Source: Nitzschia sp. DOCU1 (lineage: Eukaryota; Bacillariophyta; Bacillariophyceae; Bacillariales; Bacillariaceae). From it: a stretch of 64,000 nucleotides of DNA. The translations under genes and the position numbers were made by a program. The notes beneath the pieces were generated by a model that saw nothing but the letters and a program-made list of their open reading frames with translations, ran no database searches and was not told where the DNA came from. The DNA lies in assembly GCA_951394045.1 (NCBI GenBank), contig OX595993.1:1984001-2048000 (forward strand), in the 5' to 3' direction. This document shows, piece after piece, positions 37,783 through 42,037 of the stretch; positions within the stretch are counted from its first letter, which is position 1; each line of letters opens with the position of its first letter.

Positions 37783-39293
37783 ATGAAGTTCGCCAGCGTC
37801 GCCGTTGGCGCCGTCGTTGGAATTGGAGGATTTCTGTTGCAAGGTCCGTTGGCGGCTGCGTGGACTCCTTCCTCGCTTTTATTGCCACCGGGCAGAGGAT
37901 CCACACGAGCGACTCGTGTTGCCGTGACTAGCAGTGAGGAGGACGTGGAGTATTCGGATCTTCCCGATTTCGGCAAAACAACGGTGGAAGTCGACTTGAT
38001 CAAATTGAAAGATCCGGTTCGAGATCAAGCCGCGAAACCATGGCGTCGTCACGATTTGTTTGGACAATCGATCGTTGATCAAACGCTCCAAGAACTGGAA
38101 TCGGACCAAGGCTTTCAGGCGACGAGACGGCAGATTGAGGCCATTGGGCTGGAGGGAATGACCAAAGAAGAACGGACCAAGAGGCGACGTGCGTTGACGA
38201 ATTTGGGAATTCCGACGTTTGCGCAATTTCTTTCCGAAAAGATGAATGCGGTGGATTCTGCTACAGCTTCCACCAAGAAGAAACCCTATCATTTGAATCG
38301 ACGTCCCACAAAAATCCTTCAAATCAACATTGGCTTGTACTGCAATCAAGCTTGCAACCACTGCCACGTCGAGTCCTCACCTCTGCGCAAGGACGAAAAC
38401 ATGTCGGCCGAAACGGCAGCGCGATGTTTGGAGATCTTGAAACAGTCACCTTCCATAACGACACTGGATATAACGGGGGGAGCGCCGGAACTCAATGCCA
38501 ACTTTCGTTATCTCGTTCGGATGGCAAGGGAACTCAGGCCTGATTTGGAGATTATCGACCGATGCAACCTTACCGTCTTGCAGGAACCCGGCCAGGAAGA
38601 TCTCGTCACGTTTCTTAAAGAAAACAAAGTTCATATTATTGCATCTCTTCCATGTTACTCGGAGGAGAATGTGGATACCCAGCGGGGCAACGGCGTCTTT
38701 GAACGGAGTATCGCTGCGTTGTTGGCGTTAAACGACGCGGGGTACGGTCAAGATCCGACGCTCCAATTGGATCTAGTCTACAATCCGTTGGGCGCTTTCT
38801 TGCCCCCACCCCAATCCAAGCTCCAAGATCAGTACAAGATGCGACTAGCCGACAACTTTGGAATCTTATTCAACAGCCTATTCACAATCACCAATATGCC
38901 GATCAAGCGATTCGCAGACTTTCTGCACCGTCGAGGGGAACTCGAAGAGTACATGAGCCTGCTAGTGCGGAATTTCAACAAAGATACGGTCGAGAATCTC
39001 ATGTGTTTGGATACTGTAAGCGTTGGATGGGACGGGCAGGTGAGTCCCAAGCATCTTGCTTGCTTGTGGGGGGACATGGGCTGGAATGACTTACACTGTC
39101 GACGATTTTCGCACAGATCTACGACTGCGACTTTAACCAACAGCTTGGCATGGGGCTTGGTGTTACGGGTGGCCGAACTGTGTTTGATATCGGATCTTTG
39201 GATGATCTGTTGAATGTTCGAGTACGAACGGACAATCACTGCTTTGGATGCACGGCAGGAATGGGGTCCAGCTGACAGGGTGCCACGGCCTAA
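37783..39293 (+). CDS. arsS: ArsS-like radical SAM protein, probable selenoprotein (TGA at 39273 read as Sec)
   Basis: Exons 37783..39039 and 39117..39293. The intron is GTGAGT to CGCACAG, phase 0. This gives 477 aa if TGA 39273-39275 is selenocysteine, 471 if it is a stop. The first ATG of the frame starts a signal peptide (MKFASVAVGAVVGIGGFLL) followed by LAAA/WTPSS, possibly plastid-directed. The radical SAM cluster motif is CNQACNHCHVESS (Cx3Cx2C), with ITGGAPEL downstream. The C-terminal DUF3641 part ends HCFGCTAGMGSS, then TGA, then QGATA and TAA. The bacterial family makes arsenosugars with ArsM and includes Cys and Sec forms. A SECIS-like fold lies 3' (39362..39416). The alternative is a truncated protein lacking the last Cys equivalent. 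Confidence 0.8.
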
Positions 39294-39361
39294 ACATCGT
39301 TTGGGTTGTGGAGTAGTACTTTAGTTTTTATGTTTGTTGTGGGCTTGGTGCAGGATTATCT

Positions 39362-39416
39362 AATGAATGACTTCTTGCTGTCGCCAGGTGTAGCCTGGGG
39401 ACTGGAAGAATGAAAA
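39362..39416 (+). promoter_or_regulatory. Candidate eukaryotic SECIS element in the 3' UTR
   Basis: ATGA (39367-39370) faces TGA (39411-39413), so A70 pairs G412 and G69 pairs A413 as the tandem sheared G-A pairs of a SECIS core. Above it, 39372-39382 pairs with 39400-39410: 9 Watson-Crick pairs and two mismatches, TTCTT/AAGAA being the lower five. An apical CCAGG-TGTAG-CCTGG hairpin caps it. Thirteen nt separate ATGA from a CC (39384-39385), the spacing and CC variant known for SelM/SelO-type elements; most have AA. It starts 91 nt after the TGA. Found by eye, not by a covariance model. Confidence 0.55.
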
Positions 39417-39573
39417 TTGGATGAAGATCTCCTTCATGCCTATTTGCAATCTCAATGTGATGTGCAACGTGTAATACTAATTTTAGATGAATACGGCTTG
39501 GTAGCTTCCAATTGCGAATTGTGTGTTTCCAGCCCATAAAACGACAGCAGTTCTTTCGAATGGTGTTGTCTGC

Positions 39574-42037
39574 TTAGCAAGTATAGATTTGTTCAGATTC
39601 CGTGGAGGAGACTACCATTGAACGTTGGCCTGATACTTTGGGATCCGCCGCCTCACTTTCTTCGGGCAGATCGACGGAAACGTCTGGCATTTTGTCGAGG
39701 ACCTCGACGTCAGACGAAATTGACATCACAGATGATTGTGTCGCCTTTGACGTCTCCGGGGTTTGCGATGCTGCAGCGGAATTTTGCACCTCCTCACCAC
39801 GAGTACCAGCAGGAAGGGAGTCGCTACCTTCTACAACCGCCTCAGCCTCAGGTCGCCATTCGGGAGCTTTTTTACTCATCGTTTCTTCAGGTTCCTTCGC
39901 CCGGAATATTTTGCTGGTCGAAGTTGAGGATTGGTGCTTTGTAGTCGAGCGATATATTTGCTCTGACATTGCTTTCCGTTGCTCTGCTTCGGTCATGCCG
40001 GAGTACTTGTAAGCCATGTAGATTTTTGGAACAAATATCAAGAGCAAAATGCCCTCAGAGAGAACGAACAGCATGAGGGTCAGGACTAGATAGAAGGCCC
40101 GGGGCACTTCTTTTACAAGAACCAAAATTGGAAAACCAGTCAGGAACGCCTGAAACAAAGACGCAACACAAAGTCCAATGTACTTTGACTCAGAGAAAGC
40201 CGACTCGATTTTCCGTCCCTCGAAAGCCTGCCAACATGCAATGCCCAACACCATAAAGTTGATAATGGCCAGCGGCATGAGAAAGGCAAGAGCTGTATCG
40301 CTTCGACACGCCCCGTATGTCTCAATTTCTCGATTCCAAAAGTCGGTGCCCTCGCCCGAGAGGCGAGTGTAAGTCAACGGGTCGAGAACCGTCCAGCAGG
40401 TCAGCACGATGACGTTGCAAGTGAAAATGACTGCAAACGGTGTCAGAACGTCCCTAAGAGAAACCGTTATTCGAAGCAGCTGCCTTTTCTGTGCGTGAAA
40501 GAGCATATTGACCCTCCAAGTTTTGCTGAAGAGGGCAGCAAAGACTACTGTGAAGCCTGTGAAGGCCAGCCACGGCTGTGACATGCACACACCCACTGCA
40601 AACTTGTCGCTCATTGAGTCAGGATTACCGCCATCGTCGAACGACAGTGGGATGATAGTACTCGCTAGAATGACAACGCCAGATACCACGATCAGGAGAA
40701 AAAATGGCTGAGCTGCCCGTACAACCATGGCGGATCGGTTGTATACAGTCCAGACTGCGCAGAAGATAGAAGTGGCAAGTATGACACCTAAGAAGGTGTA
40801 GCCAACATAAATCAGGCCGCCCAAGAAGTTCTGATCCAAGCTTGGTGGGTGCACCTTGTCGAGGTCAGGAGGAATGACATTATATGCGATCACCTGGGTC
40901 TCGAAAAAGTTATTCTTCAAGGGAAGGCGAAGTTCCCCACTTTCAAGTTTGGTTTTCGTGTCCAGCATCACTTGCACTGACAAGGTGCCCATCTCGTAGG
41001 TCATCTGGCCCACTATTCCATCCAGATAACCCGTGCTCAGGTAGTGGAGAAAGGTCAACGAATCAATCGAGATGTGAGTCAGGTTTCGAAAGCGATTGGC
41101 GTCTACCCAGGTGGTCTAGTTGGGGTTCATGACCGGGGTTTGGAACAGGTAGATCAGGGCATCGATCGTTCTATTCATTACCAAGCCCTCCATCTGACAG
41201 GTCATATGATGACAATCGACCGAAAGGTTGTAAGGTCGCTCGTACGGGTATCTGGAGACTTCTTGCCATGTCGCGACCTCACGATTATCTGTATTCTTCC
41301 CAATCATCTCATCGTTGAAGGCAGAACGAATGCGGTTAGGGGTTGGGCTTTCTCACGCCATGATAAAGCCATACGTGGCACCTGCGGGACGAAGCTGCTT
41401 AAGCAGCCTAGCCAATGTCCTGCCAAAGAATTCAGCGTCGGTGCCAATGTATCCATCGGGCTCCGGCAATCCATATTCGGGTTCTCCGGGCATTGGTGCA
41501 TTGAAATTCACGAGGAAGACTGGAACACCCAGTTCCCGAGCTTCGTTGTATATTTCTGGGTTTTTAAAACTGCACTTGGCGGTAATACCCCAGCTTAATG
41601 ACACCACGTCGATGTTCATCGAGAACCCTTCTAATTTCCCAAGAACAATGGTGGATCCCCTGATAAATTCCATCTTCATCTCCTAAGGGCATCGCTACAT
41701 TCCATTCATCAGACGAAATGATTGGTCGACACTGGCACTTTATGTCCAACTTTTCGCAGGCATCCCAGAAGCCCCCCGTGCTAGCATCTTGGTAAAAGTC
41801 ACTCCCATTTTGATCAAGTGGCAAACAACCACCAGTCATCATCACATAAGTCGTCTTGTTGGGGTTTCCGCCGGAATATTGCGGCATCCATAGATTGTAA
41901 CCCACCGTAAGGTTGGTTTCCGTAATATTGAGATCTTCGGGATCTGGAAGATAGAAGTCCGGAATTGTGGTCGATTCTTCTTCCGAGGACGCACATCTCA
42001 ACAACGCCAGGAACGACACCACGCAAAGACTCTTCAT
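39574..42037 (-). pseudogene. Class C GPCR (GABA-B-like) with frameshift and two in-frame stops
   Basis: One gene read from 42037 down to 39574. It begins with a signal peptide (MKSLCVVSFLALLRCASS) and a ligand-binding domain resembling periplasmic binding proteins (GGCLPLDQNGSDFY; later GVPVFLVNFNAPMPG). It ends with seven membrane segments (LGGLIYVGYTFLGVILATS onward; the region about 39900-40830 is intact) and a Ser/Glu-rich cytosolic tail. Three lesions are seen: a frame change near 41640-41690, TGA at 41353-41355 and TAG at 41116-41118. Sequence on both sides of each stop stays coding-like in the same frame. Short introns could remove the stops in theory (GTGAGA..CAG; GTAATG..TAG, 66-68 nt), and assembly errors are possible. 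The 7TM part alone (39574..41058) is open. Confidence 0.7.

Follow-up and report, generated by a model that had tools for sequence, protein, structure and literature searches.

Does a diatom gene of the ArsS type end at its in-frame TGA, or is that codon read as selenocysteine (Sec)? The question is posed by a two-exon gene of the ArsS/TIGR04167 radical SAM family, which begins with the ATG at 37783 and extends to 39293 on the forward strand of the window (the whole stretch of DNA analysed, 64,000 nucleotides). A sequence-only reading of the window had proposed that the TGA encodes Sec and that ordinary annotation truncates the protein. This proposal is supported by a Cys column in relatives, a tail kept behind the codon, a hairpin of the type found in the same genome and most of the Sec machinery. 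On this comparative evidence, the TGA is very probably translated as Sec (probability about 0.92). Ribosomes would reach the TGA, where SECIS-binding factors on a hairpin in the 3' untranslated region (UTR) would deliver Sec-tRNA. Five residues would follow the Sec before translation stops at TAA. Reading the TGA as Sec means that ordinary annotation cuts off a residue, probably an important one.

Gene structure and family identity

The features of the gene are collected in table 1. The frame closes with CFGCTAGMGSS-TGA-QGATA-TAA; re-reading confirms the earlier observation that HCFGCTAGMGSS-TGA is followed by QGATA and then TAA. Splice sites were chosen by eye and agree with homologues. The intron position is probably common to homologues: thirty of the matches listed lack the C-terminal motif, and 26 of these depart from the family sequence at the GWDG(Q/K)V point where the intron lies here. 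The pattern QG[AST]TA follows one of the 2174 TGA triplets on the two strands of the window, and that one is the gene's own TGA. The convergent neighbour (39574-41058, reverse strand) encodes a membrane protein of the 7tm_3 family (class C GPCR-like; 118.6 bits).

Table 1. Features of the ArsS-type gene and its 3' flank, in window coordinates.
Feature	Position	Strand	Content or basis
Exon 1	37783..39039	+	Targeting-like N-terminal peptide, extension, radical SAM core (CxxxCxxC), first part of DUF3641
Intron, 77 nt, GT-AG, within DUF3641	39040..39116	+	Reading of the frame and comparison with homologues
Exon 2	39117..39293	+	IYDCDFNQQ...HCFGCTAGMGSS-TGA-QGATA-TAA
In-frame TGA, proposed Sec codon	39273..39275	+	Cys codon in bacterial relatives, homologue column, tree
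Tail of five codons (QGATA) plus stop TAA (39291-39293)	39276..39293	+	Frame and homologues
SECIS-like element	39356..39424	+	Folding, window scan, descriptor

Family membership is clear from the profiles. The TIGR04167 match scores 422.4 bits against a cut-off of 300 and covers positions 2-302 of 303; Radical_SAM (PF04055) and the C-terminal domain DUF3641 (PF12345) also exceed their Pfam cut-offs, and the radical SAM motif CxxxCxxC is present as CNQACNHC. TIGR04167 is named rSAM_SeCys, arsenosugar biosynthesis radical SAM (seleno)protein ArsS, and the diatom gene shares with the bacterial family both the profile match and the GxxU placement of the residue. The diatom gene differs in having an intron, an N-terminal extension and a SECIS-like element in the 3' UTR rather than in the coding region. 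Sec in the ArsS family is already known from bacteria: PMC13188914 lists the GxxU family as a selenoprotein, with AAR34688.1 as an example. The sequence-only reading had placed the Cys or Sec of the ArsS/DUF3641 family in a GSSC/GSSU context. The residue after GSS is Cys in relatives and is encoded by TGA here.

A protein FeSoxR, 'FeS oxidoreductase', is named among algal selenoproteins (PMC7539508), and 'Fe-S oxr' appears among those of Aureococcus (PMC5917014). DUF3641 proteins of Seminavis and Triparma carry the UniRef name 'Fe-S oxidoreductase', and the algal FeSoxR and diatom ArsS may be the same family; section 5 and related passages of PMC7539508 give for FeSoxR neither sequence nor Pfam family nor a link to arsenic. 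A passage listing Thalassiosira pseudonana selenoproteins names no radical SAM protein (PMC2375036). Among the open-licence papers listed, no title or abstract opening describes a Sec-containing ArsS from a eukaryote. In viral contigs, 10 stretches matched a pattern and none encodes a relative.

The TGA column in homologues

Two protein searches, each retaining the best 120 of about 8000 scored candidates, yielded 172 different records. Each record represents a cluster at 90% identity; most are nameless, and the named ones are diatoms and a Triparma. Among these listed matches, the C-terminal motif is present in 142 of the 172. Of these, 130 have GSS as their very last residues, 11 read GSSC-QG and one reads GSSW-QG. 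The simplest rival account takes the TGA as an ordinary stop, the diatom enzyme having lost its last six residues and the hairpin being incidental. It draws on the 130 of 142 listed relatives recorded as ending at this point, which are protein records in which the stop codon itself is not visible. Against it stands the tail. All 11 Cys forms among the listed matches retain QG after the Cys, and the QGATA behind the gene's TGA equals the tail of the Cys-form P0007 of Cylindrotheca fusiformis, down to the same end point.

The bacterial relatives argue in the same direction. The best 80 of at least 587 were examined, the query alignment of the scan having been started from a Cys form. Directly behind GSS, or GSG in a few loci, stands TGC in 52 and TGT in 27, so that Cys is encoded in 79 of the 80; in the remaining locus the motif was not found by pattern and the codon was not parsed. 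No Sec form occurs among the 79 loci read. The sequence-only reading had looked to homologues for Cys or Sec at the TGA column, and Cys stands there in these loci and in the 11 motif-bearing records. An in-frame TGA, continuity of coding beyond it and Cys homologues at its column, the usual marks of a selenoprotein gene, are all found here.

The two forms were mapped on a rapidly built tree with 155 rows: 131 'stop' including the present gene, 11 Cys, 1 Trp and 12 bacterial, all cut after GSS. At least eight changes between stop and Cys are needed among the 142 non-bacterial rows, and nine when bacteria are included, the Trp row not being counted; well-supported branches force at least seven of the eight changes in the Cys label. 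The present gene groups with P0024 (stop), adjoining P0001 and P0002 (both Cys). Because the bacterial branches are long, the tree leaves the root state unfixed. Behind a genuine stop codon such a tail should decay over time; it is intact wherever Cys appears, which argues against an ordinary stop.

A SECIS-like hairpin in the probable 3' untranslated region

An ATGA...TGA arrangement 91 nt after the TGA had been noted from the sequence and is present as described, with the core ATGA at 39367-39370 opposite TGA at 39411-39413. The lower helix pairs 39356-39364 with 39416-39424 (nine pairs, two of them G-U), and the upper stem occupies 39372-39410. The segment 39355-39425 folds at -28.4 kcal/mol (z -6.55), a value equalled by none of 200 shuffles. 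A scan of both strands of the 64 kb gave 18 SECIS-like folds, of which this one has the greatest stability. When the 298-nt downstream stretch is shuffled 5000 times, 342 shuffles contain some SECIS-like fold and none is as stable. Shuffling the whole window 10 times produced one sequence with a SECIS-like fold of equal or greater stability; over 64 kb, the hairpin would therefore not stand out by its stability alone.

In common with eukaryotic SECIS elements, it has an AUGA...GA core that is flanked by two helices and lies beyond the stop codon. When the 298 nt are folded as a whole, the upper stem is kept and the lower helix is replaced by other pairings. The element departs from the usual eukaryotic form in two respects, the CC in place of an unpaired AA and the lack of an Rfam match. 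A CC variant of the unpaired AA exists. The CC was correctly placed by the sequence-only reading, 13 nt above the core, but it is paired in the minimum-energy fold of 39355-39425. The SECIS score above threshold that the same reading had looked for was not obtained from Rfam, whose SECIS models match neither the 441 bases around the gene end (E-value mode) nor the window (gathering threshold). This silence is the second point in favour of an ordinary stop. SECIS_1 (RF00031), however, has no hit anywhere in the genome even with an E-value limit of 10, so the absence of an Rfam match does not discriminate here; such a match is an aid to detection and not a defining feature of SECIS elements.

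A strict descriptor was drawn up with sight of the window element and requires an AATGA core with its TGA partner, the two helices and at most -16 kcal/mol. It finds eight distinct places in 536,410 bases taken from the genome itself (both strands, overlapping loci counted repeatedly). These are the window element and seven places downstream, on the sense strand, of loci for GPX (1), SelT (1), SelU (1) and MsrA (4). The strict descriptor matches three times in the 1,023,602 bases of the 80 bacterial loci, and has no match at two SelU loci that contain both TGA and TAA (L029 and L031). A looser descriptor was tried on nine loci whose domain match, or a neighbouring exon match, contains a TGA, and on 16 loci lacking one; it matches four of the nine and three of the 16. 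On the antisense strand, over a longer stretch, it matches three of the nine and none of the 16; its sensitivity and specificity are therefore limited. The three matching 'negatives' are not clean ones: upstream of one, a SelU on C14, there is a TGA of the Sec type, and the other two are partial MsrA loci in which no first exon was seen. The window hairpin resembles those behind other selenoprotein-family genes of the same genome. With a genome-type element 91 nt beyond the TGA, a Cys codon in the bacterial relatives, a tail like that of the Cys forms and repeated changes on the tree, the ordinary stop is very unlikely.

Three MsrA loci (L047, L048 and L050) have a SECIS-like hairpin downstream and no Sec codon in the match itself, and in L050 a TGA lies in an adjoining upstream exon match. 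These three are probably further selenoproteins.

Selenocysteine machinery of the genome

The presence of Sec machinery, assumed in the sequence-only reading, is largely established by tRNA-Sec, SepSecS and selD; for EFSec, the search with the selB profile gave 32 matches, all below the cut-off. Five tRNA-Sec genes with a TCA anticodon exceed the cut-off, four of them in tandem (genome G000, C5:639526-640069) and the fifth on C6. Five is an unusual number of tRNA-Sec genes. A SepSecS-family gene is also over its cut-off, and selD is found twice, once with an in-frame TGA. In 14 control genomes, which need not all be Sec users, the SepSecS profile exceeds the cut-off in three and the tRNA-Sec profile in five. 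Eight other genes carry a TGA at a Sec-type site: three GPX, SelT, two MsrA, Sep15/SelM and SelU. The site was recognised in these genes by motifs that mark Sec in their families.

These findings bear on a second alternative, that the TGA is read through at a low level or is decoded as Trp or Cys without selenium. The record P0120, the single Trp form among the 142 listed motif-bearing matches, can be cited for it, having Trp at the column and the tail QGTTA behind. The Trp may stem from a gene caller that reads TGA as Trp (code 4), or from a genuine TGG. Set against the five tRNA-Sec (TCA) genes, the Sec-type TGA in eight other genes and the SECIS-like element at this locus, decoding without selenium is slightly less probable even than the ordinary stop.

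Broken copies of the gene

The genome contains many fragments of the gene. There are 84 protein-level matches, including the gene's own two exons, and the DNA pieces are about 79-90% identical. Broken fragments lie at C1:112-148 kb, C9:2.25-2.51 Mb and C11:37-184 kb, and further ones at C6:33-68 kb, C7:3.43-3.47 Mb and C13:1.957 Mb (loci L004-L008, L011 and L013). Some are arranged in blocks 11-13 kb apart, several lie within 0.3 Mb of a contig end, and the copy in L004 runs on into the convergent neighbour gene. Seven broken fragments align to the hairpin region. In five of them, which are nearly identical, deletions of 12 nt in the 3' arm and 3 nt in the 5' arm abolish the fold; the remaining two break off before or within it. 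Such part-copies might point to a pseudogene, or to a TGA created by faulty assembly. Either is hardly credible: the window copy is open throughout, with a clean intron, the same GSS-TGA-CAGGGTGCCACGGCC-TAA recurs in an independent fragment of about 90% identity on C2, and 130 other records, among the matches listed, end at the same residue.

Proposed function of the enzyme

The product probably works as ArsS, attaching arsenic to a sugar precursor. Microalgae convert arsenic into arsenosugars (PMC6629621); radical SAM adenosylation of arsenic, and Synechocystis ArsS with ArsM, are reported, from other work, in PMC12159101 and PMC8552651. In the diatom enzyme, the radical SAM cluster (CxxxCxxC) would make a 5'-deoxyadenosyl radical, to be added to dimethylated arsenic supplied by ArsM. 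An ArsM-family match is found elsewhere in the genome (296.9 bits against a cut-off of 263); the one TAA inside it is probably part of an intron. Across 58 aligned rows (P0007 numbering), the Cys residues at 160, 164 and 167 (radical SAM) and at 381, 396, 438 and 441 are invariant, and those at 234 (56 of 58 rows) and 264 (55 of 58) nearly so; every one of the 43 rows long enough to include position 449 has Cys there. The four further invariant Cys residues may hold an auxiliary cluster. Sec, on a flexible tail eight residues after the CxxC, could bind or re-reduce arsenic, or act as a redox partner of a nearby Cys. Such a role of Sec in handling arsenic or electrons is proposed with less assurance than the ArsS function itself.

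The solved structures closest in sequence are those of YydG and other radical SAM enzymes (seven matches). The predicted model of P0007, a Cys form, has a mean pLDDT of 83.8, with residues 450-454 below 50. It adopts a predicted radical SAM fold whose best match is the maturase SkfB (E 2.4e-10, TM 0.43/0.50).

The N-terminus (37783-37870) leads to ...LAAAWTPSS. At the aligned place, F or W occurs in 23 of 24 aligned homologues, in 18 of them after A. The diatom plastid-entry motif is of the ASAFAP type. The N-terminus looks like a signal peptide followed by a plastid-entry presequence, and the enzyme would accordingly be placed in the plastid.

Implications for selenium and arsenic metabolism

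Was Sec the original state? Of the 142 motif-bearing records among the matches listed, 130 come to their end at the Sec column, including one from Triparma. From this it can be argued, at about even odds, that Sec is ancestral in the ArsS of diatoms and close kin and that Cys replaced it several times later on. Diatoms would then depend on the supply of selenium to make arsenosugars, a synthesis probably located in the plastid. Should the records that end at GSS be Sec proteins, most such diatom ArsS sequences are missing a residue that is likely to contact arsenic or pass electrons, and experiments designed from the annotated proteins would be done on a truncated enzyme. Closely related Sec and Cys forms are natural material for finding out what selenium adds to a radical SAM enzyme. 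Selenium and arsenic metabolism would be joined in an ecologically major group of algae.
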